Origin: an uncultured Alphaproteobacteria bacterium
Lineage (GTDB): Bacteria; Pseudomonadota; Alphaproteobacteria; HIMB59; GCA-002718135
Assembly: GCA_902595425.1 (NCBI GenBank)
Contig: CACJPV010000006.1
Location: 1 to 64,000 of the forward strand
Direction: 5' to 3'
Length of the DNA: 64,000 nucleotides
Positions 2,213 through 38,878 of this stretch are shown piece by piece. The translations under genes and the position numbers were made by a program. The notes under the pieces were generated by a model. The model did no database searches. It had not been told where the DNA came from and saw nothing but the letters and a program-made list of their open reading frames with translations. The first letter of the stretch is position 1. Each line of letters opens with the position of its first letter.

Positions 2213-2950
2213 ATGAAAAAAATTAAAATTCATTATCAATTTGCAACTGCTAAAGGAAAAACTAAGAATGGTAATGCTGAGATTTCTAAAAGATTAAATT
2301 TTATTAATAAAAATATTGATAAAAAAAGTATTGTAAAATTATCTGTTCCCGTCAAAGGACCAGGATCGATTGAGACGGAGTACGATGAAGCCATAGCAAT
2401 ACCAAATGTTATTAATGGAATTGTAAAAGCAGAAAAAGAAAAGTTTGATGTAGCAATAATTAGTTGTTTTTCAGATCCAGGGTTATCTGCATGTAGAGAA
2501 AAAGTTTCAATTCCAGTAATAGGATCAGGAGAGAATTCAATTTTTTTAGCTAGTCAATTAGGTAATAAATTTAGTATATTATCTCCCTTAAAAGAAAATG
2601 GATTTACGTTTAAAAACAAAGTTTCTAAATTAGGATTAGATAAAAAATATTGTTCAACAAGAGCAATTAATACTTCTGTATTAGCATTAGCAAAAAATAA
2701 AAATTCAACATTAAAAAAATTAGTTCTTGCTGGTAAAAAAGCAATTGAAATTGATGGTGCTGATGTTTTAATTTTAGGATGTATGAGTATGGCATTTCAC
2801 GATATCACAATTACGTTAGAAAAAAAATTAAAAGTACCTGTAATAAATCCAGTAAAAGCAAGTTTGCTTATGGCAGAGTCAATCGTTAAAATGAATATAT
2901 CGCATAGTAAGTTAGCATATCCAACACCACCTGATAAAATAATATACTAA
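2213..2950 (+). CDS. Asp/Glu/hydantoin racemase family protein (copy A)
   Basis: A 245-residue cofactor-independent racemase-fold protein. Two cysteines lie in the places expected of the two-base catalytic mechanism: Cys85 in IISCFSDPGL and Cys190 in LILGCMSMAF. The GSGENS segment after residue 104 would bind substrate carboxylate. The family includes aspartate and glutamate racemases, hydantoin racemases and maleate isomerases; the xxxGCFxDPGL form is closest to hydantoin racemase-like members. It may supply L-amino acids or invert hydantoin-type compounds released by nearby hydrolases (inference). A second, distant copy follows 57 bp downstream. Confidence 0.82.
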   Translation: MKKIKIHYQFATAKGKTKNGNAEISKRLNFINKNIDKKSIVKLSVPVKGPGSIETEYDEAIAIPNVINGIVKAEKEKFDVAIISCFSDPGLSACREKVSIPVIGSGENSIFLASQLGNKFSILSPLKENGFTFKNKVSKLGLDKKYCSTRAINTSVLALAKNKNSTLKKLVLAGKKAIEIDGADVLILGCMSMAFHDITITLEKKLKVPVINPVKASLLMAESIVKMNISHSKLAYPTPPDKIIY

Positions 2951-3007: not shown

Positions 3008-3763
3008 ATGGCGATAGTTTATCTAGTACCGGGGAACATGACTGGTGGACCTTATGGAATTAAAGAATTAAAAAGAAGAGAGAAGCTTCTAAAAGACTGG
3101 TCCTTTAATTCTTCAAATGTAAAAGTATATGATGTTCCAAAAGGAGGAAGTTCTATTGAGTCATCATACGAAGAAATAGCATCTATCATACCTGCTGTTG
3201 ATCGCTTAAGTGAAATAACAAAGTTTGAAAATATTGATGCAGCAATTCTTGGGTGTTTTGGTGATCCAGGGCTTGACGTATTCAGAGAAATGTTTGATTT
3301 TCCTATTATTGGTCCAGCGCAAACATCGATGCATACTGCCTGTCAGTTAGGGCATAAGTTTTCTGTTATTACAATTTTTGACTCAATGTTAAATATGGCA
3401 GAAAAACAAGTACATGAATATGGTCTTGGTCATCATTTAGCTTCAGTAAGAGCAATAAATATTCCTGTTCTAGAATTATTGAAAGATTTGAATTTAACAT
3501 ACAAAAAAATGTCAGCCTTGGGAGAAAAAATCGTAAAGGAAGATAGAGCCGATGCTATACTTTTAGGTTGTATGACAATGTCTTTTTCGGGTTTGGATAA
3601 AAAACTTGAAAAAAAATTAGGAATACCTGTTTTAAATGCAGGGAGAGTTTCACTAAAAATGGCTGAGAGTTTATTGTCTATGCAGATAAGTCACTCCAAA
3701 AATACTTACCCATTCCCAACAAAACTTTTAAGTAAACAAAGATCAAAGAAAAAAAGAGCTTAA
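3008..3763 (+). CDS. Asp/Glu/hydantoin racemase family protein (copy B)
   Basis: A 251-residue protein of the same racemase fold as its neighbour, with the cysteine pair Cys83 (ILGCFGDPGLDVF) and Cys188 (LLGCMTMSFSG). Both copies share the GCFxDPGL and GCMxMxF signatures but differ strongly elsewhere, so this is an old duplication and the substrates may differ. The two genes together with the convergent dipeptide/oligopeptide ABC operon suggest handling of D- or modified amino acids. The TAA stop at 3761-3763 directly abuts the stop of the convergent ATPase gene (3764-3766) with no base between. No strong ribosome-binding site is seen before the ATG. Confidence 0.82.
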   Translation: MAIVYLVPGNMTGGPYGIKELKRREKLLKDWSFNSSNVKVYDVPKGGSSIESSYEEIASIIPAVDRLSEITKFENIDAAILGCFGDPGLDVFREMFDFPIIGPAQTSMHTACQLGHKFSVITIFDSMLNMAEKQVHEYGLGHHLASVRAINIPVLELLKDLNLTYKKMSALGEKIVKEDRADAILLGCMTMSFSGLDKKLEKKLGIPVLNAGRVSLKMAESLLSMQISHSKNTYPFPTKLLSKQRSKKKRA

Positions 3764-4756
3764 TTATTTACAGTTAATACAACACTTATCTACCCAATGA
3801 CCGGGTTTTGCCTCTATCAATCCCATTTTAATATTACCATGTTTACAATCATGTGATGGATTAGGACATCTGTCAGAAAATTTACATCCTTCGTAAAATT
3901 TTGTCGCATCCGGTATATTTCCAATAATTGGTAATGGTTCGTGAGATTGATCAACGTGAGGAACAGGAACAGCTTCAACAAGAGCTTTTGTGTATGGATG
4001 TAAAGGATTTGAAATTACTTCTTTTGTTGGGCCGTCTTCAACCACACTTCCTAAATACATAACAATAGTTCTTTCACACACATATTTTACCAATGCTAAA
4101 TCATGTGAAATATAAATAGCAGTAAAGTTCATAGATTTTTTTGCTTGATTAAAGGCATTTAAAATTCCTGCTCTAACACTGACATCCAGCATAGATACAG
4201 GTTCATCAGCAACTACAAACTTTGGACTTATTATTAGCGCTCTTGCTAAAACAATTCTTTGTAATTGACCACCAGAAAGCTCATGTGGATATTTATATAA
4301 ATACTCTTCCTTATTTTTAAGTTTTACTAAATCCATCACATTACTTATGAGATTATCAAAATCAGTCTCTCTATATTTCAGAGATTTTAATGGTTCTAAT
4401 AAAATATCTTTAATTGTAAATCTTGGATTAAGTGAATCATAAGGGTTTTGAAAAACGAATTGTAAATTTTTTTTAAAATTATGAATTTCATCAACAGTAT
4501 TTATTTTATTAATATTTTTACTTTCAAATAAAATTTCACCAGATGTTGGCTCCAACAAATTTAATATTAACTTAGCAAGAGTAGTCTTTCCACAACCTGA
4601 CTCACCAACTATACCCACAGACTCACCTTGATTTATTTTAAAGCTAACATTATCAACTGCTCTAACTTTTGGTTTGATGCCAGTTAGTAATTCGCTTATA
4701 TTTCTAGAGACATCATAATGTTTGGAAACATTTTTAAATTCTAAAACTGTACTCAT
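3764..4756 (-). CDS. Peptide ABC transporter ATPase, DppF/OppF type (SBP1 system)
   Basis: A 330-residue cytoplasmic ATPase powering the SBP1 importer. Visible motifs are Walker A GESGCGKT, the Q-loop FVFQNPYDSLNPR, signature LSGGQLQR, Walker B VVADEP and the switch histidine in ISHD. The C-terminal oligopeptide-transporter extension has the cysteine pattern GCKFSDRCPN...C...CCINC, which in some Dpp ATPases binds an iron-sulphur cluster. I place the start at the ATG at 4756, just after the upstream ATPase stop (4758); a longer frame adds nine residues that do not resemble the family. Last gene of the five-gene SBP1 operon. Confidence 0.9.
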   Translation of the reverse strand: MSTVLEFKNVSKHYDVSRNISELLTGIKPKVRAVDNVSFKINQGESVGIVGESGCGKTTLAKLILNLLEPTSGEILFESKNINKINTVDEIHNFKKNLQFVFQNPYDSLNPRFTIKDILLEPLKSLKYRETDFDNLISNVMDLVKLKNKEEYLYKYPHELSGGQLQRIVLARALIISPKFVVADEPVSMLDVSVRAGILNAFNQAKKSMNFTAIYISHDLALVKYVCERTIVMYLGSVVEDGPTKEVISNPLHPYTKALVEAVPVPHVDQSHEPLPIIGNIPDATKFYEGCKFSDRCPNPSHDCKHGNIKMGLIEAKPGHWVDKCCINCK

Positions 4757-4757
4757 A

Positions 4758-5759
4758 TTATTCTTGCGACTCCCAAGTTTCAATTTTTTTAGATTTAGCT
4801 AAAAGATCAGTTTGATCATTAGTTCGCCAACATATTACTTCTCTATCATTAATTTTTAAACGATCAGGTTTAGTCTCGCATTTACTAACCTCAAATGGAC
4901 ATCTTGATTTGAAACGACATCCAGTTGGAGGACTTATTAAATTAGGAGGGGTTCCATTAATTGGAACAAGAAAATCATTTGTTGAGTGAAGATCTGGAAA
5001 AGCATTATTGAGTCCCATTGTATATGGATGAAAAGGTTTTTCTAAAATATCTTTTACAGGTCCAGTTTCAACTATCTCTCCTGCATACATAACTGCAACT
5101 TTTTGACAGATATAAGCAACGACCGAAACATCATGAGTAACTAGAATAATTGATAAATTTAATTTATTTCTTAACTCATTAAAAAGATCTAAAATCTGTC
5201 TTTGAACAATAACATCAAGAGCTGTAACTGGTTCATCTGCAATTACAATTTGTGGTTCCAATGCTAAAGCCATAGCGATTGCAACTCTTTGTTTCATTCC
5301 TCCACTAAACTGATGAGGAAAATCTCTTAATCTATTTTTTTCAATACCAACTAAATTAAAAAGCTCTTCAGATCTTTTATCAGCTGATTTTTTGCTATGA
5401 TTGCCTCTTATAATTAAAATTTCTCTCATTTGATCTATTATTCTATAAACAGGATCAAGAGAATTCATTGCACTTTGCGGAATAAAAGCAATGTCTTTCC
5501 ATTTATAATCTAAATTTACTAAATTATCTTCAGAGTCTAATATTTTATTATCTTGAAAAAATATCTCTCCTGATGCTATCTTTGCTGATTGAGGGTTTAC
5601 TCCCATGATGCTTCTAGCGAGAGTTGTTTTACCACATCCTGATTCACCAACTATACCTAACAATTCACCTTTTGATAAATTAAGTGAAACATTATCTACA
5701 GCTTTTACAACATAGTCTTTTCCAACATAATGAATACTTAAATTTTTAACTTGCAACAT
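4758..5759 (-). CDS. Peptide ABC transporter ATPase, DppD/OppD type (SBP1 system)
   Basis: A 333-residue ATPase partner of the preceding DppF-type protein. Motifs are Walker A GESGCGKT, Q-loop FIPQSAMNSLDPV, signature FSGGMKQR, Walker B VIADEP and THD switch, followed by the peptide-transporter C-terminal domain with cysteines (GCRFKSRCPFEVSKC and VICWR). SGGMKQR versus SGGQLQR distinguishes the D-type from the F-type subunit. The start is taken at the ATG at 5759, which begins MLQVKNLSIHY as in relatives and sits 4 bp after the permease stop; the longer open frame would overlap the permease by 65 bp. Confidence 0.9.
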   Translation of the reverse strand: MLQVKNLSIHYVGKDYVVKAVDNVSLNLSKGELLGIVGESGCGKTTLARSIMGVNPQSAKIASGEIFFQDNKILDSEDNLVNLDYKWKDIAFIPQSAMNSLDPVYRIIDQMREILIIRGNHSKKSADKRSEELFNLVGIEKNRLRDFPHQFSGGMKQRVAIAMALALEPQIVIADEPVTALDVIVQRQILDLFNELRNKLNLSIILVTHDVSVVAYICQKVAVMYAGEIVETGPVKDILEKPFHPYTMGLNNAFPDLHSTNDFLVPINGTPPNLISPPTGCRFKSRCPFEVSKCETKPDRLKINDREVICWRTNDQTDLLAKSKKIETWESQE

Positions 5760-5763
5760 AATT

Positions 5764-6615
5764 TTACTTTTTAATTTTTGGAAATAAAATTTCCTCATAT
5801 CCTCTACTGATAAAAAAACCCGCAACAACCATTAGAACTATACATATTCCTGGGGGGATAAACCAAATGTAAGCTTTTAGTGACAAGGCTTGAGAACTAT
5901 ATGCATCTTGTAACATATAACCCCAAGATATAACGTCAGAAGGTCCAAATCCCAAGAAGCTGACACTTGCCTCAGTTAATATTGCCCAACCAATAGCAAT
6001 CGATCCATATAAAAAAGATAAAGGAAGTATGTTGGGAGCTATATGCATAAAAATAATTCTGAAATTACTACATCCTGAAACTTTAGCTGATTCTATATAA
6101 CCTCTTTCCCTTAATGTTAGTACTTGGCTTCTTATGATTCTACCTGCATTTGGCCATAGCAATAAGCCGATAGCAATAACAACATTCCATGAACTAGGAC
6201 CTAAAAAAGCAGCTAAAACTATTACAAAAGGTAAAAAAGGCAATCCAAGTGCAATATCAGCTAATCGCATAATTAAGTTGTCTATCCATCCACCGTAAAA
6301 ACCTGATATTAAACCAACTATTGTGCCTAAAATTGCTACAGCTAATGCAGCACTTAAACCAACAGCAAGCGCGTTCCTTGAACCATAAATTAATTGAGAA
6401 AAAATATCTCTACCATTTGAAGTAGTTCCTAAGAAATATTCCAAACTAGGAGGTAAATTTCTTGCTAAACCACTTGAAGAGAAATTTATTCTTAGCGGAT
6501 CATTGGTAGCTATAAGATCAGCAAAAATTGCAATTATAATAAAGAATATATAAATACCAACACCTACAGTTGCATAGTTGTTTTCTCTAAATATTTTATA
6601 AAGTTCTTTAATCAT
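5764..6615 (-). CDS. Peptide ABC transporter permease, DppC type (SBP1 system)
   Basis: A 283-residue inner-membrane permease. An N-terminal membrane segment (about residues 16-36) is followed by the periplasmic part with FFLGTTSNGRDIFSQLIYGSRNAL, the hallmark of DppC/OppC proteins, then five more membrane segments. The cytoplasmic EAA loop (YIESAKVSGCSNFRIIFMH) contacts the ATPases. The C-terminal SFLGFGPSDVISWGYML is also typical. It forms the heterodimeric translocation path with the DppB-type permease, whose stop lies 2 bp upstream of this start. The complete SBP-B-C-D-F order means this system can work on its own. Confidence 0.92.
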   Translation of the reverse strand: MIKELYKIFRENNYATVGVGIYIFFIIIAIFADLIATNDPLRINFSSSGLARNLPPSLEYFLGTTSNGRDIFSQLIYGSRNALAVGLSAALAVAILGTIVGLISGFYGGWIDNLIMRLADIALGLPFLPFVIVLAAFLGPSSWNVVIAIGLLLWPNAGRIIRSQVLTLRERGYIESAKVSGCSNFRIIFMHIAPNILPLSFLYGSIAIGWAILTEASVSFLGFGPSDVISWGYMLQDAYSSQALSLKAYIWFIPPGICIVLMVVAGFFISRGYEEILFPKIKK

Positions 6616-6616
6616 A

Positions 6617-7603
6617 TTAGTTTTTTGTCTTATAGCTAACTCTTGGATCTAAAAATAAATACATTAAATCTGCGAGAAAATTCATTATTATTAAAATTGC
6701 TGTAAGAAAAATAAATGCTCCTTGAGCAAGAGGATAATCACTTGATGATACGGCAAAAACCAACAATCTACCTAATCCAGGCCAACTAAAAACTGTCTCA
6801 ATGACAACATTACCTCCAAATGCAAAACCAACACCAAGTGTAAAGGCAGTTGCTACAGGTAATAGAGCATTCCTAGCGGCATGATATATTACTATTCTCC
6901 AACTAGATAAACCTTTCATCTTAGACATTGTAACAAAATCTTCTTGCATTACTTCAAGCATATTCGATCTCATTAATAACAAGGGCAAACCTTGAAGATA
7001 TAAAGCAAGAACTAAAGATGGTAATATTAAATGGTAATAAAAATGTAGGCTAGTTAACTTAGATAATGTAGTTTCATAAATCACTCCAGCTGCACTTGTG
7101 CCGCCAGATGGAAAAATATCTAATTGAAAACTAAAAAAAGCAAGTGCAATCATACCAAGCCAAAATTCAGGAGCTGATCTTGTGGTAAGCACAATAGGAA
7201 TTGATATGCCTTCAATAAGAGTATCCCTTTTCCAGGCTAAATAAGCACCAGCTATAACACCGAATATATATGCAATTATTAATGAAAATAATGTAAGAAT
7301 AATTGAGTTTGGTAAAGCCTCAACTATCATATCAATAACTGGTTTATTATAAGTAAACGATAATCCAAAATCTCCTTTAAGAGTATTGAATAAAAAAAGA
7401 GTATATTGCTCAAATAAAGATTTATCTAAACCAAATCTTTTTACCAACAAATCATGCTGTTCATCAGTAAATGTGGTTCCTATAAATGCAGTAAGGGGCG
7501 AACCTGGCATCAGTCTGAACATGAAGAAGATAATTGTTGCTACAACCCATAGAACAAATATCATATATAAGAATCTTCGAATTATAGACCAAAAGTCAAA
7601 CAT
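6617..7603 (-). CDS. Peptide ABC transporter permease, DppB type (SBP1 system)
   Basis: A 328-residue permease with six predicted membrane segments. The N-terminus has the RLMPGSPLTAFIG segment followed by FGLDKSLFEQYTLFLFNTLKGDFGLSF, the DppB/OppB signature. The EAA loop is FVTMSKMKGLSSWRIVIYHAARNALLPV, and the FSWPGLGRLLVFAV and LDPRVSYK segments close the protein as in relatives. It begins 20 bp after the SBP1 stop, behind a GGGG-rich ribosome site. Unlike the other three binding-protein genes in the window, no hairpin separates it from its binding protein. Confidence 0.92.
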   Translation of the reverse strand: MFDFWSIIRRFLYMIFVLWVVATIIFFMFRLMPGSPLTAFIGTTFTDEQHDLLVKRFGLDKSLFEQYTLFLFNTLKGDFGLSFTYNKPVIDMIVEALPNSIILTLFSLIIAYIFGVIAGAYLAWKRDTLIEGISIPIVLTTRSAPEFWLGMIALAFFSFQLDIFPSGGTSAAGVIYETTLSKLTSLHFYYHLILPSLVLALYLQGLPLLLMRSNMLEVMQEDFVTMSKMKGLSSWRIVIYHAARNALLPVATAFTLGVGFAFGGNVVIETVFSWPGLGRLLVFAVSSSDYPLAQGAFIFLTAILIIMNFLADLMYLFLDPRVSYKTKN

Positions 7604-7623
7604 CCGCCCCTTACTTTCTTGTA

Positions 7624-9288
7624 TTAATGTTTTTCTGCCACCCCTTCCGGATAATGCAGTCTACCATTTTTAACAGTATAACCAGCATCAGCTAAAATCT
7701 TTTTAGCTAACTCAACACCTGTTTCATACTCAGTAATACCATCTTTATGATAGTAGGTTAAAGCCGGTGAAACATGTGAGCCTGCTTTAACAGCATTCCC
7801 AGCCCAAGCCGCATTAACCATTACATCTCTATCAATAGCTAATGATACAGCTCTTCTGAAATTAACATCATCAAAAGGAGCTCTTCTATGATTCATAGCC
7901 ATATACTGAAATCCAACATCAATTGATTTAACAAGTGTGATATCTCCATCTTCTTCTACAATATTAGCTAATACTGCAGGATCACCTTTGTAATCAGTAA
8001 GAAAATTTACTTCTCCTTTTCTAAACTGACCTAAAGAAGCTTCAACATTTGGAATTTCTTTCATAATCCATCGACTAATCTTAGGAGGATTAAAGTGATC
8101 GGAGTTTCTTTCTAAAATTACTTGTTCTCTTTGTCTCCAATCCACAAATTTAAATGGGCCAGAGCCTATTCTTTTTTCCTCAATGATAGTTTCTGCATTA
8201 TTACCAGTGCCTTCTAAAGCTTGAAGAATTGGTTCATAATAATGTTTTGGAACAAGGTTAATTTTAGCTAAAGATGAAGTCAAAAATGCTGCATTTGATG
8301 ATTTTAAATTAAACCTTACAACATTATTCCCTTTAGATTCCATTGACTCAATATTTTTAACAAATGGAGAATACATTGGAACCATTTCAGCATTCATTGG
8401 TGCTTCAAAAGAAAATATAACATCATCTACTGTTACAGGTTTACCATCATGCCAGCTCATTCCTGCACGTAAAGTTACATCGATAGTTTGTTCATTCACC
8501 CAATTGAAAGACTCTGCAGCCCAAGGCTGAGGTGTTCCATCTGGTCCAATTCTTAACAATCTATCCCATACTATTTCGGTTATCCAAGAATCCGTACCTC
8601 CAGAAATAAAGAATGGATTAATCGCTTGGATTTCATCTAAACTTTGAGCAACTAGATCTTGATTACCATTAATTGGCTCAATACCTAAATATGTCCAAAT
8701 GTTTTTAATTCCAAGACCTGCTTGCTCAACAGCACTACCATCTTTAAATTGCGAATTATCATATGCAAAATTTAAAAGTGGATGTACTAAATAAGCATTT
8801 GCAGCTGCATCTGCAAGATGCTGCTGGGCCTTATCAATTAATACCTTTCGTGCAGCAGGATCCATAGTAACCCTCTGCTTTTCTGCTAATGCATCAAATG
8901 CTGGATCTACATAACCTATAAAGTTGTATCCTTTATCAGCAGTCGATGAATGAAATAAATTATAAGTAAATTCATCTGGATCACTTCTTTCAGGTCTACT
9001 TACCATTTGCCACATTGTTAAATCCCAAGTGTCTTCATCAAGTCTTTTATACCAAACTTGATCAGCCATTTGTGGCCAAGGAACTGCATTAACAGAAATA
9101 TCCAAACCAAGCTCATTCAAAGTTTGTGCTATTATTAAAGCAGCTGTGTGTGGTGCTGGGCCAGCAGCTTGTTCTCTTGCCCAAAGCTTCATACTTCTTA
9201 TTTCTTCTGCACTTGCAGAACTAACAAAAAAAGAAAGTAGCAATGAAGAGATAAAACCAACTAGCACAGCAGATAATTTTTTATACAT
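7624..9288 (-). CDS. Family-5 peptide-binding protein with apparently circularly permuted domain order (SBP1)
   Basis: A 554-residue periplasmic binding protein with a signal peptide (residues 1-27, cut near SSASA/EE). The order of its parts is unusual. Residues about 30-200 match the C-terminal part of normal family-5 proteins: a WxP-type strand, DLTMW, YNFIGYVDPAFDALAEK, then TMDPAARKVLIDKAQQHLA. Residues about 205-554 match the normal N-terminal part: QSLDEIQAINPFF, GTPQPWAAESF, WHDGKPVTVDDVIFSFE, GSGPFKFVDW, and finally FRRAVSLAIDRD and AKKILADAGY, where the chain ends. SBP2, SBP3 and SBP4 in this window all have the usual order, with the DxxGY segment leading straight into the C-terminal part. 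Preceded by a GGGAGG ribosome site and heading the operon to 3764. Confidence 0.88.
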   Translation of the reverse strand: MYKKLSAVLVGFISSLLLSFFVSSASAEEIRSMKLWAREQAAGPAPHTAALIIAQTLNELGLDISVNAVPWPQMADQVWYKRLDEDTWDLTMWQMVSRPERSDPDEFTYNLFHSSTADKGYNFIGYVDPAFDALAEKQRVTMDPAARKVLIDKAQQHLADAAANAYLVHPLLNFAYDNSQFKDGSAVEQAGLGIKNIWTYLGIEPINGNQDLVAQSLDEIQAINPFFISGGTDSWITEIVWDRLLRIGPDGTPQPWAAESFNWVNEQTIDVTLRAGMSWHDGKPVTVDDVIFSFEAPMNAEMVPMYSPFVKNIESMESKGNNVVRFNLKSSNAAFLTSSLAKINLVPKHYYEPILQALEGTGNNAETIIEEKRIGSGPFKFVDWRQREQVILERNSDHFNPPKISRWIMKEIPNVEASLGQFRKGEVNFLTDYKGDPAVLANIVEEDGDITLVKSIDVGFQYMAMNHRRAPFDDVNFRRAVSLAIDRDVMVNAAWAGNAVKAGSHVSPALTYYHKDGITEYETGVELAKKILADAGYTVKNGRLHYPEGVAEKH

Positions 9289-9388: not shown

Positions 9389-10387
9389 TTAATTACTTAT
9401 AAAAATTGTTGATTTTCCAATCTTTTTTGAATTTTCAATATAATCATGAGCCTTATAGGCACTTTTAAATTCATATGATTTTATCTTTGGGTGTCTTAAC
9501 TTACCTTTAATCATTAACGAATTAGTAAAATTTCCAACTTTTTTTAAATAAGAATTATTATGTAAAAAAGCTTGGACAATTTTTATATTTATACCTTTAG
9601 GAGCATATAAATAATAGGGAAAAATTGGTTTCAATATAGATGAAGAAGAATATGAACAAATAATACCATTTCTTTTTAAAATGTTTGGGAGTAAATTAAT
9701 ATTGTAACCAAAATCAACTTCAATACATCTATCAACATTTTCACCTTTTGTATAATCCTTAACTGCTTCTATAATTTCTTTTTGATCTAATTTTTTATAA
9801 TTTAAAATTAAATCTGCTCCAAGGGTTTTACAAATTGTTCTTTTATAATTTGAACTAACTGTTGTAATAACTTTTAAACCATTAATTTTTGCAAATTGTA
9901 TCGCATAATTACTTACGGCTCCTGCTCCGCCAGAAACAAAAACATATTTTTCTCCTAATTTAAAATCAGAAAAAACTGAAAAATAGGCAGTTGCTACTGG
10001 AACACCAAGACAAGACGCCTCAATTAAAGAAGTATTTTTAGGTATTGGAATTAAATGGTTTTTATTTGTACAATAATATTGTGCACAAGTTCCTAAAATA
10101 TTTTCTTTTGAACCTCCACAAATCCAAAATTTTTTACCAATCATTTTTTTATCTGATTTAGAAAATACATCAACTACCTCTCCACAACCATCAGAATGAG
10201 GAATGACAAATTGTTCATTTAGTTTCTTTGATATCCAACCAGATCTTTTTTTTGTATCGGCAGGATTGACACTCGAATAATTAATTTTTAAAACAACTTG
10301 GTTTTTTCTTGGAATTGGATCATCAAATGAGCCTAAATTAAGAACTTCTTTTGCCTTACCAGTTTTAACATAATATACAGCTCTCAT
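9389..10387 (-). CDS. Medium-chain dehydrogenase/reductase, quinone-oxidoreductase-like
   Basis: A 332-residue MDR-superfamily oxidoreductase. The N-terminal GroES-like domain has NYSSVNPADTKKRSGW and VIPHSDGCGEVV. The cofactor domain (from about residue 145) has VFVSGGAGAVSNYAIQFAK, the NAD(P)-binding loop in the form used by zeta-crystallin-like, zinc-free quinone oxidoreductases, followed by GADLILNYK. The catalytic zinc ligands of true alcohol dehydrogenases are not apparent. The start is set at ATG 10387 (MRAVYY), because the 15 residues further upstream do not fit the family. It is divergent from the M28 gene and shares the operator at 10426-10451. Confidence 0.82.
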   Translation of the reverse strand: MRAVYYVKTGKAKEVLNLGSFDDPIPRKNQVVLKINYSSVNPADTKKRSGWISKKLNEQFVIPHSDGCGEVVDVFSKSDKKMIGKKFWICGGSKENILGTCAQYYCTNKNHLIPIPKNTSLIEASCLGVPVATAYFSVFSDFKLGEKYVFVSGGAGAVSNYAIQFAKINGLKVITTVSSNYKRTICKTLGADLILNYKKLDQKEIIEAVKDYTKGENVDRCIEVDFGYNINLLPNILKRNGIICSYSSSSILKPIFPYYLYAPKGINIKIVQAFLHNNSYLKKVGNFTNSLMIKGKLRHPKIKSYEFKSAYKAHDYIENSKKIGKSTIFISN

Positions 10388-10425
10388 ATTTTTGATGATA
10401 TAAAAAAAACTAATAATAATCAATG

Positions 10426-10451
10426 ATGACAATTAATCATCACTAAGATGA
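10426..10451 (+). promoter_or_regulatory. LysR-type operator copy between the MDR and M28 genes
   Basis: ATGA-(7)-TCAT-(7)-ATGA, the best match to the shared element, within a perfect TGATGA/TCATCA dyad. It ends 46 bp before the M28 start. Possible -10 boxes are TATAAT at 10466-10471 and TATAAA at 10484-10489. The dyad could also serve the minus-strand MDR gene. Confidence 0.65.
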
Positions 10452-10497: not shown

Positions 10498-12207
10498 ATG
10501 GATAAAGAAATTTTAGATCAAGTGAACATTGATGTTGCATGGGGTTTAGTTGAAGAGTACTCAAAATTTCCAAGATGGAAACCTGATGATGTAAACAAAT
10601 CCTGTAAATTGATAACTGATAAACTGGAAAAATTTGGTGTTAATCATAAAGTTTATGAGCCAGAATTATACTTAAGTGTGCCCTTTACGGCTAGTGTAAA
10701 GTTAAAAGATGGTAGTTCACTTCATGCAAAACCACCTTCATATAGTATCAATTGTGAAGAAGGAGTAACTGCAGAACTACATTATGTTCCCTCCCATGTA
10801 TCAAAAGATATAGAAAACTTATTTGATAAATCACAAGATAAAGAAGCTTCAACTCCAGATAAAGTTAGAGGAAAAATTATTATATCAGAGGGTTTTTCTT
10901 TTCCAGGAAAAATTCAAGATTTTGAAAAAGCTGGAGCAGTTGGTGTAATAGCTATCAATCCAGGTGTTGATATTCATTGGGGTATTTGTACATCTATTTG
11001 GGGAATGCCTGAATATGATGGCTTAGAAAATAAACCTAATATTCCAGTTGTTGCTGTTAATTTAGAAAGTGGAAATACACTTATAGAATTATCAAAAAGT
11101 AATGAAGCTGTCACATTATTTACCAAATTAGAAGAGGGTTGGTTTAATCAAAAAATACCTGAGGTAACTATTCAAGGCAATAATGACAATGATGATTTTA
11201 TATTATTACACGGTCATTATGACTCTTGGGATGTTGGTGTTGGAGATAATGCTACTGGTGATGCTTGTATGCTTGAGATTGCAAGGCTTCTTAATGACAA
11301 TAAAACTAAACTTAAAAGAAATGTAAAAATAGTATGGTGGCCTGGTCATTCGACAGGAAGATATGCTGGGAGTACTTGGTATGCAGATAACTTTGCAATT
11401 GAACTAAGTAGAAACTGTGTAGCTCAGATTAATTGTGACTCACCTGGTTGTAGATGGGCTGATACATTTAATCATCTATCTGTAATGACAGAAGCTGAAG
11501 ATTATGTTCATAAGGTAATTAATGAAATTACTGGAATAACTCCTGTATGTGAGAGACCTCATAGAGCTGGTGATTATTCATTTAACAACATTGGAATTAG
11601 TAGTTTTTTTATGCTTAGCTCTACTATGCCAGATGATTTAAGAAAAGAAAAAAACTATTATGCTGTTGGAGGCTGTGGTGGCAATATAGCATGGCACACT
11701 GAAAACGATGTAATGGAAATAGCTGATAAACCAAATTTAGAGAGAGATATAAAAGTTTATGCAGCAAGTGTTATTGAATTAAGCAATTGTAAATATCTTC
11801 CTTTTAATTGGTTGGCTTCAACAAAAGAATTTAGAGAAGTATTAAATAATTATCAAAAAAAATCAGAAAGTCACTTTGATTTATCTGATGCTATTAAATC
11901 CTTAGATGATTTTGAAAATAAATTAAAAAAGTTTTATGATTTAATTAATCAAGATAATATAGAGCCGACAAAAGCAAATAAAATAATAAAAAAACTTGCA
12001 AGAATTCTTATTCCTTTAAATTACGCAAGAAATCCAAGATTTACACATGATCCAGCAGTACCTATTCCACAAATTCCTGTACTATCATTATGTGAGGAAT
12101 TTAATGAAATACCTAAAAAAGATCATGGGTTTGTTAAAAACCAACTTGTTAGAGGTCAGAACAGATTTATAGATGCATTAGATCAGGCAAGTGTATTGTT
12201 AGAATAA
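10498..12207 (+). CDS. M28-family zinc peptidase-like protein with PA domain and altered catalytic motif
   Basis: A 569-residue protein. Residues about 90-200 form a PA (protease-associated) insertion (IIISEGFSFPGK, AGAVGVIAINPG). The M28 metallopeptidase core follows: LLHGHYDSW (His240, Asp242), GDNATGDA (Asp250), Asp314 in QINCDSPG and His400 in IAWHTEND. These fit four of the five zinc ligands. The usual EE pair, which supplies the general base and a bridging ligand, is replaced by His284-Ser285 in WWPGHSTGRYAGS. I recall this GHSTGRYAGS form in other bacterial relatives, so it may be a real subfamily with different chemistry. There is no signal peptide, so it is probably cytoplasmic. First gene of a unit with the EamA exporter and dipeptide epimerase. 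Confidence 0.85.
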   Translation: MDKEILDQVNIDVAWGLVEEYSKFPRWKPDDVNKSCKLITDKLEKFGVNHKVYEPELYLSVPFTASVKLKDGSSLHAKPPSYSINCEEGVTAELHYVPSHVSKDIENLFDKSQDKEASTPDKVRGKIIISEGFSFPGKIQDFEKAGAVGVIAINPGVDIHWGICTSIWGMPEYDGLENKPNIPVVAVNLESGNTLIELSKSNEAVTLFTKLEEGWFNQKIPEVTIQGNNDNDDFILLHGHYDSWDVGVGDNATGDACMLEIARLLNDNKTKLKRNVKIVWWPGHSTGRYAGSTWYADNFAIELSRNCVAQINCDSPGCRWADTFNHLSVMTEAEDYVHKVINEITGITPVCERPHRAGDYSFNNIGISSFFMLSSTMPDDLRKEKNYYAVGGCGGNIAWHTENDVMEIADKPNLERDIKVYAASVIELSNCKYLPFNWLASTKEFREVLNNYQKKSESHFDLSDAIKSLDDFENKLKKFYDLINQDNIEPTKANKIIKKLARILIPLNYARNPRFTHDPAVPIPQIPVLSLCEEFNEIPKKDHGFVKNQLVRGQNRFIDALDQASVLLE

Positions 12208-12218
12208 ATTAAATTTAT

Positions 12219-13085
12219 ATGCCAGTTAAATATCTAGGATTGGCATACATTTTATTATCAGTATTTTTTGCATCTCTGATGGTAATATTAATAAAATATC
12301 TATCAGACTCCATGAATATTTATACAATATTATTTTATAGAGGTTTTTTTGGATTCATATTTGTATTATTTTTTTTTACTAAAGTTAATTTAAATATTCT
12401 TTATACAAATAGAATTCATATACATTTTATAAGATCAGTTGTTAATGCCTTAGCCTTATATTTTTGGTTTACTTCACTTACTTTATCATCTTTAGCTGAT
12501 GTATCTGCGATAGGAAATTCTGCTCCTATATTTGCAACTCTTCTAGCAATTATATTTATGAAGGAAAAAATAATCTTATCACGTATTTTTGCAATCATAA
12601 TGGGTTTTATTGGAGTAACTATAATATTAAATCCAAATTTTCATTATGTTGAGTTAGGTCATTATTACGCTCTAATAGCTGCAGTTTTATGGGGTTTTTT
12701 AGTTGTCTTTCTAAAAAATCTCAGCAAAACTGAAAATGCATTTTCCGTAATTTTTTACTTTCAATTATTTTTATTTGTTTCATTTGGCATATTATTTTAT
12801 GATTTTATTGAAATTCCAAATAAATTAAATTTTGTTATTATTTTACTTTTAGCTTTATTTGGCAATTTGTCTCAAATTTGTTATTTTCAAGCACTAAAGC
12901 ATAAAGATGTTAGTTATATTTCTCCATTTGAGTATTTAAGATTTATATTTTTAACTATTTTTGGAATTATATTTTTTTATGAATATCCTAATTCAGGAAC
13001 ATATATTGGTTCTTCAATAATTTTTTTAGGTATTTTAACTTTAAATTATAATGTTAATTTTTTAAAAAAACTTGGTTTGAAATGA
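12219..13085 (+). CDS. EamA/DMT-family transporter
   Basis: A 288-residue integral membrane protein with about ten membrane segments arranged as two EamA repeats. The first repeat contains FYRGFFGFIFVLFFF and the APIFATLLAIIFMKEKI segment; the second has YYALIAAVLWGFLVVFLK and the ending FEYLRFIFLTIFGIIFFYEYP. Members of this drug/metabolite transporter superfamily often export amino acids or metabolites. Placed between a peptidase and a dipeptide epimerase, it may release surplus amino acids (inference). It overlaps the following gene by 4 bp (ATGA). A second EamA protein is at 42260-43165. Confidence 0.87.
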   Translation: MPVKYLGLAYILLSVFFASLMVILIKYLSDSMNIYTILFYRGFFGFIFVLFFFTKVNLNILYTNRIHIHFIRSVVNALALYFWFTSLTLSSLADVSAIGNSAPIFATLLAIIFMKEKIILSRIFAIIMGFIGVTIILNPNFHYVELGHYYALIAAVLWGFLVVFLKNLSKTENAFSVIFYFQLFLFVSFGILFYDFIEIPNKLNFVIILLLALFGNLSQICYFQALKHKDVSYISPFEYLRFIFLTIFGIIFFYEYPNSGTYIGSSIIFLGILTLNYNVNFLKKLGLK

Positions 13086-14083
13086 AACATAAAATAATCA
13101 TGAATTATAAAAAAAAAATTTGGAATTTAAAAGAAGATTTTAAAACATCTAACAGATCAGAAAATACAAAGCAAGCTATAGCAATAGAAGTGACAATTAA
13201 AAAAAATAATTATGTAGGTCGTGGAGAAAGTACACCTTACATCAGATATGGAGAAAATATTACAAACTCAATCCAAGAATTAAAATCAATAAAACCATAT
13301 ATAGAAAATGGCATTTCTAGAAAGATGTTACAGTTAAAGATGAAACCTTCAAGCGCAAGATGCGCAGTGGACTGTGCTATGTGGGATCTTGAAGCAAAGG
13401 AAAAAAATAAAAAAATTTGGCAGCTTTTAAAAATTAAGAAAAAACCTTCACCTCTAAAAACAACTGAAAGTTATGGGATAAGACCATTAACACAACTTCA
13501 AAGTGATATTGAAAAAGATAACTATCCATCTTTAATAAAACTAAAAGCGAATGGTAATAATGTTTTAGAAATTGTTAAGACAGTTAGTAGAATTTCAAAA
13601 GATTCAAAATTAATTATTGATTTTAATGAAAGTTTAGGACCGAATGAAATTATTCCTCTTTCAAATAAATTAAAAAAATTTAATATTATTATGTTGGAAC
13701 AACCTTTACATGAAAAACAAGATAATATTCTGTCAACATTTAAACATCCTATTCCTATAGGCGCTGACGAGTCTTGTCATACCACTCATGATCTTCAAAA
13801 ATTAAAAAATAAATATGATTATATTATTATTAAACCAGGAAAATGTGGTGGATTAACTGAGGCTATGAAATTAAAAAGACTCGCTGAAAAAAGTAATTTT
13901 TTAACTATGATCGTTTGTATGTTCGGTTCATCATTAGCCGTTGCACCTGCATATTTTCTATCTTTGGATGGTGCAAATATTAATAACATTGAGGTACCAA
14001 AAATCATGCAAAACGATAGAAAATATAAAATTAAATGTCAAAACCAATTAATATTTCCTCCTGATCAAAGACTATGGGGTTAA
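13082..14083 (+). CDS. Enolase-superfamily dipeptide epimerase (L-Ala-D/L-Glu epimerase type)
   Basis: A 333-residue muconate-lactonizing/enolase-superfamily enzyme. The capping domain occupies roughly residues 1-120. The barrel shows the KxK motif (Lys153-Leu-Lys155), metal ligands Asp180 (IDFNES), Glu206 (LEQPL) and Asp229 (GADES), and the second catalytic lysine region IIIKPGKCGGLTEA (Lys251/Lys254). This set is typical of dipeptide epimerases, which invert one stereocentre of dipeptides such as L-Ala-D-Glu from peptidoglycan. The link to peptide scavenging is strengthened by the M28 gene two positions upstream. Its stop overlaps the convergent amidohydrolase stop as TTAA (14080-14083). 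The exact dipeptide cannot be predicted. Confidence 0.85.
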   Translation: MKHKIIMNYKKKIWNLKEDFKTSNRSENTKQAIAIEVTIKKNNYVGRGESTPYIRYGENITNSIQELKSIKPYIENGISRKMLQLKMKPSSARCAVDCAMWDLEAKEKNKKIWQLLKIKKKPSPLKTTESYGIRPLTQLQSDIEKDNYPSLIKLKANGNNVLEIVKTVSRISKDSKLIIDFNESLGPNEIIPLSNKLKKFNIIMLEQPLHEKQDNILSTFKHPIPIGADESCHTTHDLQKLKNKYDYIIIKPGKCGGLTEAMKLKRLAEKSNFLTMIVCMFGSSLAVAPAYFLSLDGANINNIEVPKIMQNDRKYKIKCQNQLIFPPDQRLWG

Positions 14084-24166: not shown

Positions 24167-25726
24167 TTATTTTAGAGTAGCTTTAAATAAATCTACTTTT
24201 TCATCTCTTCGTGGAGACCAATCTACTCTATTGCTAACTCCATAGAAGTCAGGCTGGAAATATAGATGTAACCAAGGTCCTTCATTATAAAACACCTCTA
24301 ACATTCTATCTACTTCTCTTCGAATTATGTATTCATTGTTGGTGTTATTAATAACTTTCCAACCTTTGAACCATTCCTCGTTCTGCCATTTAGTGTAGTT
24401 AGGTCCTGAGTCAGGTTTTGATAAGTCAGCCATATCATAAAGCGGACTCCAAGTAGCTCCACCTGAACCGATAAAATACATTGGTCCTGCTTTTTTTTCT
24501 ATAATAAGAGGAATATATACTGAAGACCAATCTAAAATATCACATTTAGTTTTAACGCCAACATCATCAAGATACTGACAAATTGCTAAAACAACATTTC
24601 TATCATTTAGGTATCTACCTTCACCTGCTTGAAGTGTCATTTCAAATCTAACACCATTAGCATCTCTAGGATACCCTGCTTGATCTAGTAAATATTCAGC
24701 AATTTCTGGATCATATGGGTAAGGTTTTAATGTTGGATGAGCATTGTTAGGATTAACTATACCAGTCATTCTTGTACAAGGTGCATTTAAAAGATTAGCA
24801 CAAATTGCTTCTACATCGACTGCGTATTGAAGAGCTCTTCTAACCTCTGGTTTTTGTATTGCTGCTCCACCTGGAGTAACAGCAAATTCAGGACCTTGGT
24901 GATAACCAACATACATTCTTCGAGTACCTTGAACTTTAGCAACTGACGCAGTACTTGAAGCATCTATTGCTTCAACCTGATCAGGAGATGCATTAGTAAT
25001 CATATCTACATTACCAGCAATAAGTTCAGCTGTTCTTGTGGAAGCTTCTGGAATTACTCTCCAAATAATATTTTCAAAATTTGTTGGTATAGGAGGATTA
25101 GCAGCCTTTTTCATAACAATTTGACTTCCTTTATCCCACTTAACAAATTCATAAGGACCTGAACCAATTGGATTAGTTGCCGCTTCTTCTTTTGACATCT
25201 TTTCATAAGAGTCTTTACAGTGAACATAAACTTCAGCGATTAAGCCTAAAGCAATGTGGTTTGGACCACCTAAAACAATTGTTACATCTCTATCACTATC
25301 TGCCCTTGCTTCTTTAAAATCAATTGATTTATATACAAAGCCAGCTGAGTTTCCTGTAAATGCCATTTCTGGATCTGCTACTCTATTAAAAGAATATGCT
25401 GCATCTTCTGCAGTCAATGCTTCACCATCATGACAAGTTAATCCACTCTTCAGAGTAAAAGTATATTCTTTACCATCATCTGAAATTGTGTAACTTTCTG
25501 CTAAATTAGGCACGATGGAACCAGTCTCATCAACAGAATATAACTGACCAAACATGTGCTTCATAATATTAGCAGTGTGCCGTGAACTAATTTGAGCAGG
25601 CTCTAAACCAACAGTATCAGTAGGTAAGCCGACCACAAATGTATCATCTGGAGGTGCTGCGAAAGAATAAGTAGAAGGTAAAATCAAACCCAATACTATC
25701 GCTACTCCAGTTATTATTTTTTTCAT
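24167..25726 (-). CDS. Family-5 solute-binding protein (SBP2)
   Basis: A 519-residue periplasmic binding protein in the canonical domain order. The signal peptide covers residues 1-23 (ending SFA). The N-terminal segment VGLPTDTVGLEPAQISSRHTANI is followed by YTFTLKSGLTCHDGEALTAEDAAYSFNR, GSGPYEFVKW and VRRALQYAVDVEAI; then the DQAGYPRDANGVRFEMTLQ junction leads into the C-terminal part. Several cysteines (for example in LTCHDG and YVHCKDS) may form disulfides. A GGAGG ribosome site precedes the ATG, and a LysR-type operator lies 74 bp upstream. The ligand is probably a peptide or amide, but glycosides are also bound by this family. Confidence 0.92.
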   Translation of the reverse strand: MKKIITGVAIVLGLILPSTYSFAAPPDDTFVVGLPTDTVGLEPAQISSRHTANIMKHMFGQLYSVDETGSIVPNLAESYTISDDGKEYTFTLKSGLTCHDGEALTAEDAAYSFNRVADPEMAFTGNSAGFVYKSIDFKEARADSDRDVTIVLGGPNHIALGLIAEVYVHCKDSYEKMSKEEAATNPIGSGPYEFVKWDKGSQIVMKKAANPPIPTNFENIIWRVIPEASTRTAELIAGNVDMITNASPDQVEAIDASSTASVAKVQGTRRMYVGYHQGPEFAVTPGGAAIQKPEVRRALQYAVDVEAICANLLNAPCTRMTGIVNPNNAHPTLKPYPYDPEIAEYLLDQAGYPRDANGVRFEMTLQAGEGRYLNDRNVVLAICQYLDDVGVKTKCDILDWSSVYIPLIIEKKAGPMYFIGSGGATWSPLYDMADLSKPDSGPNYTKWQNEEWFKGWKVINNTNNEYIIRREVDRMLEVFYNEGPWLHLYFQPDFYGVSNRVDWSPRRDEKVDLFKATLK

Positions 25727-32830: not shown

Positions 32831-33889
32831 ATGGCCGAAATAAAAATGACTTCAATCAACTATGAAGATTTAAAAGAATTTGTTTTTAGTTCATTTGTTG
32901 CAATGGGATTAAATAAACTAGATGCTGAAATTTTTTCTGATGCTTTAATGTTTTCTGAATTAAGATTTCTTTCAGGTCAAGGTCAAGGAGTTCAAAGAAT
33001 TATAACGTATTTTAAAAGAATACGAAATAAAGAAGTGAATTTAAATTCTGATTATGAAATTATTAAAGAAAGCTCATCCTTAGCATTAGTGGATGCAAAA
33101 AATGGAATAGGTACTATTCAGGCCTCAAAATGTATGGATATCGCAATTCAAAAAGCGCAAAATGAAGGAATAGGTAAAGTCATTATAAAAAATTCAACGC
33201 ATTTTGGTTCCAGTTCAGTACATGCTGTTAAAGCTGCTAATCAAAATTGTATTGGTGTAGTGTACACAAATGCTGGCCCTGAAATGGCTCCCTGGGGATC
33301 AAAGAGTGGAGGAGTTGGAACAAATCCTTGGGGCATTGCATGCCCAACTGGAAAAGGCTTCCCTTTAATTTTAGATATTGCTCTCACCACAGCCGGTAAA
33401 GGAATGATGAGGTGGCACGAAAGAGAAAATAAACCAATGCCTAAAGATTGGGCACTTACAAAACAAGGGTATGAAACTACAAACCCATCAGATGCAATGG
33501 ATGGATTTCTTCTCGGTATAGGCCAATACAAAGGTTATGGCTTATCTTTTATGACGGATGTATTAACAGGAGTAATAAGTGGAGGTGGTTATGGGTTAAT
33601 GCCATATTCTGATCCAAAAAGGTTAGATGTTTCGCACTCAATTACAGCAATCAATATTGAGTGGTTTATGAAAATAGAAGAATTTTGTAAGCGCATAGAT
33701 GACTTTGTTAATACGATCAAAAACCTTCCATTAAGACCTGGTTTCGATGAAATTTTTGTTCCAGGAGAAATAGAAAATAAAAGAGTTAAGGAAAAAATGA
33801 AGTCTGGAATACCTCTAGATAATGAAGTAATTGATTCATTTGATCAACTTGCCAAAGATTTAGAAATAAAAAAATTAAAAAGACCCTAA
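32831..33889 (+). CDS. Ldh-family (malate/L-lactate type) NAD(P)-dependent dehydrogenase
   Basis: A 352-residue enzyme of the MDH2/LDH2 family. Characteristic pieces are SELRFLSGQGQGVQRI, the substrate-binding histidine in KNSTHFGSSSVHAVKAA, NPWGIACPTGKGFPLILDIALTTAGKGMM, and GQYKGYGLSFMTDVLTGVISGGGYG. Members reduce 2-keto acids, but several (DpkA type) reduce the cyclic imines delta1-piperideine-2-carboxylate or delta1-pyrroline-2-carboxylate made from D-amino acids, which would suit the amino-acid setting. It overlaps the M24-fold gene by one base (TAATG). Confidence 0.9.
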   Translation: MAEIKMTSINYEDLKEFVFSSFVAMGLNKLDAEIFSDALMFSELRFLSGQGQGVQRIITYFKRIRNKEVNLNSDYEIIKESSSLALVDAKNGIGTIQASKCMDIAIQKAQNEGIGKVIIKNSTHFGSSSVHAVKAANQNCIGVVYTNAGPEMAPWGSKSGGVGTNPWGIACPTGKGFPLILDIALTTAGKGMMRWHERENKPMPKDWALTKQGYETTNPSDAMDGFLLGIGQYKGYGLSFMTDVLTGVISGGGYGLMPYSDPKRLDVSHSITAINIEWFMKIEEFCKRIDDFVNTIKNLPLRPGFDEIFVPGEIENKRVKEKMKSGIPLDNEVIDSFDQLAKDLEIKKLKRP

Positions 33890-35058
33890 TGGAAAAAAAA
33901 TTGACTACAAAACCTCTGTCCAAAAAATTTTATGATCAAACAAGGCAAAATTTATTAAACCTAATAGATAAAAAAAATTTAGATGGATTTTTAATTACAA
34001 ACCCAGCAAATATTTATTATTTTACTGGCTTCTTCTATGTAACTAATGAGAGGCCATCTGGTTTTTATCTATCCAAAACAAATAAAAGCAAATTGTTCAT
34101 TCCTCTACTTGAAAAAGAAAATGCTGAAAATGTTAACATAGACAATGTTTGTATTTACGAAGAGTTTCCAGGAAAAATAAACCCATATTCATTTATGGCT
34201 GAAAACATAGAAGAGAGAAATATTGGAACTGATATAAAAAACATCGATATTTTAAATTTAGTAGAAACTCAATTTGATACCTTATTGCACAACACAGGTG
34301 TAGAGAAATTTAGATTCCAAAAACTAGATGAGGAAATTAATCTTATAACTATTGCTGCTCAATATGCAGATCTCACACTTGAATATTTAAGGGATAATGG
34401 CCAAGACTTAATAAATACTAAACTTAATGAGAGAGAACTTGTAAAAATTTGTACTGAATATTCTAAAAATCAAATGTTAAAAGATTTGCCAAATGATTTT
34501 GATGAGACACCGTGCAATGTTGTAGCTACAATTCATTCCGGACCCAGAGGTGCATTACCTCACGGTAAATCGTTAAGCAGAATTCCTAAAAGTAATGAAA
34601 CACTGATTTGCGGCGTTGGAGCTTGTGTTGGGGGAATGTATGCAGAGTCCGGAGTAACTTTTATACTTGGAGAACCAAATAAAGATCAAGAAAATATTAT
34701 GATAGCAATGCAAAAAGCAAATGATGAAGTTGTACGAAACTTAAAAGAGGGTCAGATGTGTGAAGAAATCAATAAAATTGCTTTTAAAATATATCATGAA
34801 TATGGTTTAAGCGAATTTATAAGACATAGAATTGGTCATGGAATGGGATTTGAAGGTCATGAGGCTCCTTGGTTATCTCCTGGAGATAAAACCATATTAA
34901 AAAATAAAATGGTCTTTTCAAACGAGCCTGGAATATATAGACCTAATATAGATGGTTATAGAACAATAAGCTCTATGATAGTCGATAGGAATGAAGGAAT
35001 ACAAATTTCAAATTTTTTAAGTAAAAATTTTGAGAACAGAATAATAAATATAAGGTAA
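33889..35058 (+). CDS. M24 (pita-bread fold) protein lacking several metal ligands
   Basis: A 389-residue protein with the N-terminal creatinase-like domain (residues 1 to about 145, including ITNPANIYYFTGF) and the C-terminal pita-bread domain. The catalytic histidines are present (His225 in ALPHGKS, His317 in IGHGMGFEGHE) and Glu346 in NEPGIY. The first metal-binding aspartate is Gly242 (CGVGA), the second appears to be Glu253, and the last glutamate of the RIED motif is replaced in GYRTISSM (near Ile360). This is closer to creatinase, a metal-free amidinohydrolase, than to true Xaa-Pro aminopeptidases. A peptidase role is doubtful; C-N bond hydrolysis without metal is plausible. Confidence 0.85.
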   Translation: MEKKLTTKPLSKKFYDQTRQNLLNLIDKKNLDGFLITNPANIYYFTGFFYVTNERPSGFYLSKTNKSKLFIPLLEKENAENVNIDNVCIYEEFPGKINPYSFMAENIEERNIGTDIKNIDILNLVETQFDTLLHNTGVEKFRFQKLDEEINLITIAAQYADLTLEYLRDNGQDLINTKLNERELVKICTEYSKNQMLKDLPNDFDETPCNVVATIHSGPRGALPHGKSLSRIPKSNETLICGVGACVGGMYAESGVTFILGEPNKDQENIMIAMQKANDEVVRNLKEGQMCEEINKIAFKIYHEYGLSEFIRHRIGHGMGFEGHEAPWLSPGDKTILKNKMVFSNEPGIYRPNIDGYRTISSMIVDRNEGIQISNFLSKNFENRIINIR

Positions 35059-35067
35059 GGAGAAAAA

Positions 35068-36303
35068 ATGCCAGAAGCAGCACCATGGAAATTTAGAAAA
35101 ATTCTTCGTCCTCTGTTTGAGACAAATAAAGAAAATATTTTATTTAAATTAAGAGTTATCGAACCTAAAACTCGTCAAGTAATCGAGAATGGATTTGTTG
35201 AAATTGAAGATGGAAAAATCTCTAAAGTTGGTGAATTTTCGGATTTGATTGATACTCAAAATAACAAAAAAATATTAGAACTTAAGGATCACTCCATTCT
35301 TCCTGGATTAATGAATTCACATGCACATCTTGCTTGGGATGGAACCCATGACTTAGCACAGCAATCAATGGATGATGCAGTAGAAATTTCTGCCTATAAG
35401 TCATGTGCAAACATGCTCAAATCCTTAAGAGCAGGAATTACTTTAGTTAGGGATTTGGGAATGAATAAATCAAATATTTTTGCAAAACAAGCTGTGGAGC
35501 AAGGTATTTACCCTGGTCCACGATTAAAGATTTGTGGTGAAGCTATTGTGCAAACTGCTGGACACACATATTGGTGCTGTAGAGAAGCCTCGGGACCTGA
35601 TGAAATGAGAAGAGCAGTTAGAGAGCAAGTTGGAGCTGGAGCTGATTTAATAAAAATTATGGCATGTCATGATACTCTAGAATTTACTGATGAAGAATTG
35701 TCTGCAGTAATTGATGAAACCCATCGAAACGGACTTTATATCACTGCTCATGCAACTTTTAATGATGCTATTGATAGAGTAGTTGATTTTGGAATTGATT
35801 GCATTGAACATGGAGGCCCGATGACAGACTCCACAATAGAAAAAGTTGCAAAAAAAAATATACCAATTTGCACAACCTTTTCACCGGTTGTAATGCAAAG
35901 TAATGCTGAAATAGCAAGACAATATAATATTCCTGAGTGGAAAATAAAAGAAAGGCAAAAAATTGTTAAAGATAAATCACGGTTTGATTCTTTAGTAAAA
36001 GCAAAGAAAGCCGGTATAGAAATAATTTTTGGAACAGATGCAGGATCACCAGTAGTGCCTCATGATGCGATTGTTCCTGAAATGAAATTTATGATTGATC
36101 TTGGAGTTGTAGAAGATAACTTAGACGCAATCCAATCAGCAACTTATCGCGCAGCAAAAGTAAATAAAATGGATGATCATATTGGATCATTGGAAATTGG
36201 CAAGGAAGCTGATTTAATCATTGTTGATGGCAAGCCTGATAAAAATATTGATGATTTATCAAAAGTTAAGCAAGTATACATTAACGGCAACAGACTAATA
36301 TAA
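35068..36303 (+). CDS. Metal-dependent amidohydrolase (Xaa-Pro dipeptidase/imidazolonepropionase-like, copy 2)
   Basis: A 411-residue amidohydrolase-superfamily enzyme. Metal and catalytic motifs are LMNSHAHLAWDGTHD (HxH), LIKIMACHD (lysine), ITAHATFND, CIEHGGPM and FGTDAGSPV (final Asp). The C-terminus (EIGKEADLIIVDGKP) is typical. It is a paralogue of the proteins at 14080-15300 and 46897-48147 and would hydrolyse acyl-amino acids, dipeptides or lactam-like compounds. It is one of the few genes in the operon with a good ribosome-binding site (AAGGAG, 6 bp before the ATG), which suggests relatively strong translation. Confidence 0.88.
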   Translation: MPEAAPWKFRKILRPLFETNKENILFKLRVIEPKTRQVIENGFVEIEDGKISKVGEFSDLIDTQNNKKILELKDHSILPGLMNSHAHLAWDGTHDLAQQSMDDAVEISAYKSCANMLKSLRAGITLVRDLGMNKSNIFAKQAVEQGIYPGPRLKICGEAIVQTAGHTYWCCREASGPDEMRRAVREQVGAGADLIKIMACHDTLEFTDEELSAVIDETHRNGLYITAHATFNDAIDRVVDFGIDCIEHGGPMTDSTIEKVAKKNIPICTTFSPVVMQSNAEIARQYNIPEWKIKERQKIVKDKSRFDSLVKAKKAGIEIIFGTDAGSPVVPHDAIVPEMKFMIDLGVVEDNLDAIQSATYRAAKVNKMDDHIGSLEIGKEADLIIVDGKPDKNIDDLSKVKQVYINGNRLI

Positions 36304-38877: not shown

Positions 38878-38878
38878 A

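Follow-up and report, generated by a model that had tools for sequence, protein, structure and literature searches.

A naturally circularly permuted family-5 solute-binding protein encoded with Dpp/Opp-type permease and ATPase genes in an uncultured alphaproteobacterium

Few bacterial proteins have been studied as much as the solute-binding proteins (SBPs) of ABC importers, whose domain order is regarded as invariant. In Escherichia coli, DppA binds dipeptides via R383 and D436, against which the scoop residues E41 and R42 of the permease DppB insert in the pre-catalytic complex (PMC12136057). That a two-lobed SBP tolerates circular permutation is indicated by engineered permuted binding proteins, for example ribose-binding protein constructs (cited in PMC10601554), and the CIRPIN survey of AlphaFold clusters showed natural circular permutation to be common across folds (PMC12667903), although periplasmic, solute-binding and transporter proteins go unmentioned in its main text. 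An earlier sequence-only reading of the locus described here knew of no described example in this family; likewise, in the open-licence literature that we searched, we found no report of a naturally permuted ABC-importer SBP. We report such a protein in a 64,000-nucleotide stretch of DNA from an uncultured alphaproteobacterium (the whole stretch is hereafter the window), and consider it very likely that it reflects an ancient circular permutation of the periplasmic SBP of a Dpp/Opp-type importer, with the fold supported by a model only and transport and substrate inferred.

The SBP is encoded in an uninterrupted frame of 554 residues, the first 27 of which form a Sec-type signal peptide, and its parts are as follows.

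7624..9288, minus strand: permuted family-5 SBP, whole ORF, 554 aa (ORF, Pfam, phmmer and profile test)
9208..9288, minus strand: signal peptide, residues 1-27, MYKKLSAVLVGFISSLLLSFFVSSASA (sequence; cleavage site inferred by eye)
8758..9204, minus strand: residues 29-177, the C-terminal segment of ordinary family-5 SBPs, profile 357-496, DppA ~371-513 (profile test)
8665..8757, minus strand: residues 178-208, the join from the ancestral C-terminus to the ancestral mature N-terminus, where the signal peptide was lost (profile test and AlphaFold; 182-202 of low confidence)
7675..8664, minus strand: residues 209-538, the N-terminal segment of ordinary family-5 SBPs, profile 30-352, DppA ~28-368 (profile test)
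7624..7674, minus strand: residues 539-554 and the stop, a new C-terminus formed by a conserved G-x-L-x-YP stub (alignment)

By score the protein belongs to family 5, with 224.7 bits against PF00496 for a curated cut-off of 32.4, and PF00496 was the sole Pfam family found. It was returned as two stretches, the better of which placed residues 252-543 on positions 1-284 of the 368 in the profile. By comparison, the conventional SBP2 encoded at 24167-25726 of the window gave a single collinear stretch (71-438 on 2-363). The same reversal was seen with phmmer against AppA (1xoc), where query residues 210-542 matched chain residues 22-349 and query residues 48-173 matched chain residues 375-492. 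A profile of conventional SBPs (519 positions) was then made from 35 genuine family-5 SBPs and searched with single and doubled sequences. Residues 29-177 of the window protein fell on profile positions 357-496 (81.7 bits) and residues 209-538 on positions 30-352 (263.5 bits), while the doubled protein gave one collinear match over positions 30-496 of 519 at 349.4 bits, a gain of 86. Doubling brought no gain in any of 57 conventional controls (largest, -0.3 bits). Of 68 sequences whose domain order marks them as permuted, 64 gained at least 34 bits; among the four exceptions, L105, L108 and L132 are truncated by a contig end, and the fourth is L106. This places the cut between positions 352 and 357 of the profile, or DppA residues ~368 and 371 in precursor numbering. 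The two segments are complementary, with no part of the fold lost or duplicated, and the 31-residue join at 178-208 stands where the original C-tail and signal peptide used to be. Failing the conventional segment order, the protein is a permuted variant of PF00496 and not a standard member.

Most of what the sequence-only reading had proposed for the protein was upheld: that residues of about 30-200 resemble the C-terminal part and 205-554 the N-terminal part of an ordinary SBP, that the frame is uninterrupted with the signal peptide at the true N-terminus (ORF and sequence), and that PF00496 would match as two out-of-order stretches, not as a single collinear one. Its statement that the protein stops at AKKILADAGY failed in detail, as the C-terminus lies 17 residues further on (TVKNGRLHYPEGVAEKH). 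A truncated SBP that carries an unrelated N-terminal domain resembling the C-part by chance might be suspected, since the best Pfam stretch is the N-part. This is all but excluded, however, because the front segment scores 81.7 bits on exactly the profile positions that the rest of the protein lacks, and does likewise in about 60 homologues.

A usable structure model was also obtained, as the sequence-only reading had proposed. The AlphaFold input alignment contained conventional SBPs as separate N- and C-fragments together with permuted homologues, and the resulting model had a pLDDT of 73.9 and a pTM of 0.76, with low confidence in the join (182-202) and some loops. A first run on a 16-row alignment (pLDDT 50, pTM 0.45, Foldseek TM 0.16) had been discarded. 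Foldseek matched the model in the PDB to AppA, NikZ, DppA, OppA and their relatives over ~360 sequential columns with a TMt of ~0.5, a limit that is expected because a sequential aligner was confronted with a permutant; no permutation-aware superposition was made. The window protein is thus predicted by the model, without experiment, to fold as the usual two-lobed clamp. None of the 60 listed matches in a PDB search with a profile of the permuted family was itself permuted in this manner; in each, the best stretch begins within the N-part of the query and aligns with the first part of the PDB chain.

The SBP gene is followed, on the same strand, by the remaining genes of a transporter.

6617..7603, minus strand: DppB-like permease, ~20 bp after the SBP, without the DppB scoop residues E41/R42 (domain and alignment)
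5764..6615, minus strand: DppC-like permease
4758..5759, minus strand: oligopeptide-type ATPase, with a likelier inferred start (MLQVKNLSIHY) at 5759 than the 5828 given by the ORF tool (ORF, sequence)
3764..4756, minus strand: second oligopeptide-type ATPase, with a likelier inferred start (MSTVLEFKNV) at 4756 than the 4783 given by the ORF tool (ORF, sequence)

One operon at 3764-9288 thus holds an SBP, two permeases and two ATPases, a complete Dpp/Opp-type set, and the earlier claim that a full permease/ATPase set follows the SBP held (3764-7603, minus strand, genes intact). Nine annotated plasmid sites with permuted SBPs show an identical arrangement of these five genes, and permuted SBPs elsewhere also adjoin a DppB-like permease, usually less than 200 bp away. 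In the permease tree, 20 partners of the main permuted type formed one clade (100/99) apart from the partners of conventional SBPs, which constitutes independent evidence because the permeases are not permuted. The SBP and the permease also co-occur: of 61 relatives, two hold the SBP, and it is these two that hold the permease. SBP and permease share descent. A binding protein that no longer serves transport, for example one used in sensing, and merely sits beside a transporter remains conceivable, as no transport assay exists; some SBPs are known to serve receptors. We regard this as very unlikely, given that the permuted SBP directly adjoins the permease and the permease and ATPase genes are intact in both bacteria and archaea, and that the permeases share the clade of the SBP.

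The permuted order is not confined to the window. The same ORF was found in five separate assemblies of uncultured Alphaproteobacteria (isolates AG-..., likely single cells) at ~90% identity, one copy being cut by a contig end. Two Brevibacillus reuszeri genomes encode a homologue with the same order at 50% identity over residues 23-553. Plasmids encode further collinear full-length relatives, at ~50% identity in Neorhizobium, Nitratireductor, Microvirga, Roseomonas and Ketogulonicigenium and at 26-32% in haloarchaea. An SBP with this order was present in 12 of 289 sampled alphaproteobacterial genomes (11 besides the window's own), and the main permuted type, CP1, in 7 of 299 sampled Bacillota genomes. 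In a 299-genome sample of the window's phylum searched at a stricter threshold, only the window's own genome matched, so the distribution is patchy; among viral contigs, we found no permuted relative and only two conventional ones. Some genomes hold two different permuted SBPs (L163 5896-7524, on a Nitratireductor plasmid, and L104 in G400), and the subfamily has therefore diversified within genomes.

These relatives bear on the possibility of an assembly or gene-calling artefact, or of two broken tandem SBP genes that have fused and are decaying. In favour of such readings, the window's assembly is fragmented and 84% complete, and tandem SBP genes do exist beside such transporters (L110). Both are all but excluded. 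The ORF recurs in the five assemblies and in other phyla (~50%) with matching ends, and an assembly error is rejected because the five separate relatives, rhizobia, Roseomonas, Brevibacillus and haloarchaea share the order. Both are further contradicted by the intact operon, by the signal peptide at the new N-terminus and by a dN/dS against close relatives of 0.06 overall and ~0.05 in each part, which shows that the SBP is under purifying selection. The G-x-L-x-YP motif of the C-terminal stub is conserved among relatives too. We conclude that the window SBP is a natural circular permutant, with complementary, non-overlapping segments in swapped order that are fixed in independent genomes. The expectation that homologues would show the same order was borne out in separate genomes of the genus, in other phyla and in archaea, and an assembly rearrangement absent from relatives, which would have refuted the sequence-only reading, was not found, since independent relatives share the order. 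Its view that the protein looks functional is supported by the dN/dS and the intact operon, with transport itself inferred and without experiment. In one respect that reading was too modest: the subfamily is old and widespread, and there are at least two further independent permutations within PF00496.

These further permutations were placed in an SBP tree for which permuted sequences had been rotated into conventional order beforehand. The window protein's group, CP1, for which the 23 rows come from Alphaproteobacteria, Bacillota and haloarchaea, formed one clade (99/100) and, together with the permease clade, demonstrates a single origin for the group. A second group, CP2 (L107 1002-2690, L109 and L117-L136), is cut at ~DppA 235, with the order late N-part, C-part, early N-part. 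CP2 was found in 21 of 299 Bacillota genomes (at least 50% identity, mostly full length), is followed by permease and ATPase genes in the copies examined, and sits near CP1 in both the SBP and the permease trees; it could be a re-permutation of CP1 or a fourth origin, both being possible. Two tandem CP2 SBP genes lie beside one transporter (L110 8442-10205 and 10569-12092; G597:C70), and duplications of this type can give rise to permutations. CP3 (L137 1236-2837, the same as L023), with a cut at ~DppA 139, a signal peptide and a full transporter operon, nests among conventional SBPs (99/99). It comes from one genome of the window's genus and no second example was found, but contamination is unlikely because its neighbourhood repeats the gene order of the window at 32831-40276. 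Finally, CP1b (L096-L102, Bacillota) has the cut site of CP1, yet its proteins end right at AGYSxx without the YP stub and nest with a conventional SBP of the window (97/88). Forcing CP1b together with CP1 was rejected by the AU test for the SBP (p=0.0005, in a set that included the unsure row L068) and for the permease (p=0.002). From these placements and tests it follows that permutation of family-5 SBPs arose at least three times, in CP1/CP2, CP1b and CP3. This recurrence is the most surprising part of our results, given that circular permutation itself was already known across folds.

An alternative history is that of a heterologous chimera, in which the front and back pieces derive from different tandem paralogues joined by a deletion fusion rather than by permutation. 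The separate part trees, which resolve the nearest conventional relatives only weakly, leave some room for this. Against it, the N-part tree recovers the permuted group as one and the C-part tree nearly does, and the nearest rows in the two trees include CP2 as well as certain conventional SBPs of Bacillota common to both. A chimera thus seems unlikely, and the product would be a permuted SBP under either history. Under the permutation that we prefer, the gene may have originated when tandem duplicates were fused in frame and their outer halves were trimmed away. The mature protein begins at the C-lobe loop between DppA ~368 and 371, at the strand after the cut helix, runs through the remaining C-lobe to the ancestral C-terminus, passes via the short join to the ancestral N-terminus, and ends by completing the N-lobe and the initial portion of the C-lobe. 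The clamp would then catch a small peptide-like solute and pass it to the products of the adjacent permease and ATPase genes, and neighbouring peptidases, racemases and epimerases would process the cargo inside the cell. The Brevibacillus and Haladaptatus homologues carry a lipobox cysteine near the new N-terminus; the lobe limits of DppA are known, and when these are used the lipid anchor is inferred to sit on the C-lobe and not on the N-lobe.

Clues to the cargo come from the genes that flank the operon.

2213..2950, plus strand: Asp/Glu/hydantoin racemase; genes of this type are found beside permuted-SBP operons in Brevibacillus and Nitratireductor as well
3008..3763, plus strand: second Asp/Glu/hydantoin racemase
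9389..10432, minus strand: zinc-binding quinone-reductase-like dehydrogenase; the Nitratireductor operon has an NADPH:quinone reductase next to it
10498..12207, plus strand: M28 peptidase with a PA domain; permuted-SBP operons of alphaproteobacteria, Brevibacillus and haloarchaea also have M28 genes alongside
13082..14083, plus strand: enolase-superfamily (dipeptide-epimerase-like) enzyme; counterparts lie near permuted SBPs in Haladaptatus and Halobaculum

M28 peptidases recur beside permuted SBPs in alphaproteobacteria, Brevibacillus, Natrialba and Haloprofundus, and other neighbours that recur across lineages are Asp/Glu/hydantoin racemases, hydantoinase/oxoprolinase, M20 peptidases, D-aminoacylases and dipeptide epimerases. 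It may be that the cargo consists of unusual, modified, cyclic or D-amino-acid peptides, a possibility inferred from these genes, with the substrate unproven. The window at 1612-63462 contains many peptide-breakdown genes and four family-5 transporter operons, and resembles a peptide-scavenging region. In the window protein, DppA R383 has no aligned counterpart and D436 is replaced by Glu in an RPERxDPDE motif, and the E-R scoop pair is absent from its permease and from the other CP1 and CP2 permeases examined, whereas CP1b and CP3 permeases keep a GE motif. The dipeptide-binding pair is also missing in many conventional members. Together, the lack of an R383 counterpart, the Glu in place of D436 and the missing scoop pair make an ordinary dipeptide an improbable cargo; this conclusion, likely in our view, is inferred without binding data. 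A FRLMPG-like stretch is common in the permeases that partner CP1 and CP2 SBPs.

A bolder reading would take all of this together: family-5 SBPs would be unusually permutable, having been cut at three or more loops on separate occasions, and moving the termini would be adaptive, as it shifts the secretion or lipid-anchor point on the clamp and in CP1/CP2 goes with a scoop-less permease subclass. Taken as one joint claim, this is something we would sooner doubt than accept. A permuted subfamily that spans two domains of life, together with independent cuts, constitutes a natural experiment that shows which positions of a clamp protein tolerate a cut. It bears on the position of termini and lipid anchor versus permease docking, and on permutation via tandem duplication. 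Such proteins are mis-described by annotation that relies on segment order and by sequential structure search, and permuted scaffolds taken from nature may aid biosensor design.

Among known systems, the best sequence and fold match is AppA, the oligopeptide-binding protein of Bacillus subtilis, which comprises the same two segments but in conventional order, so that the window protein matches it as two swapped stretches. The E. coli DppABCDF system shares the fold family and the permease type of the window system, whereas the order of DppA is conventional. Among the nickel-binding family-5 SBPs NikA and NikZ, also of conventional order, NikA is the best NCBIfam match of the window protein (116 bits, far under the cut-off of 600), with no evidence of a metal ligand for the latter. 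Finally, engineered permutants are laboratory constructs of other SBP families, whereas the permutation in the window is natural, fixed and widespread.
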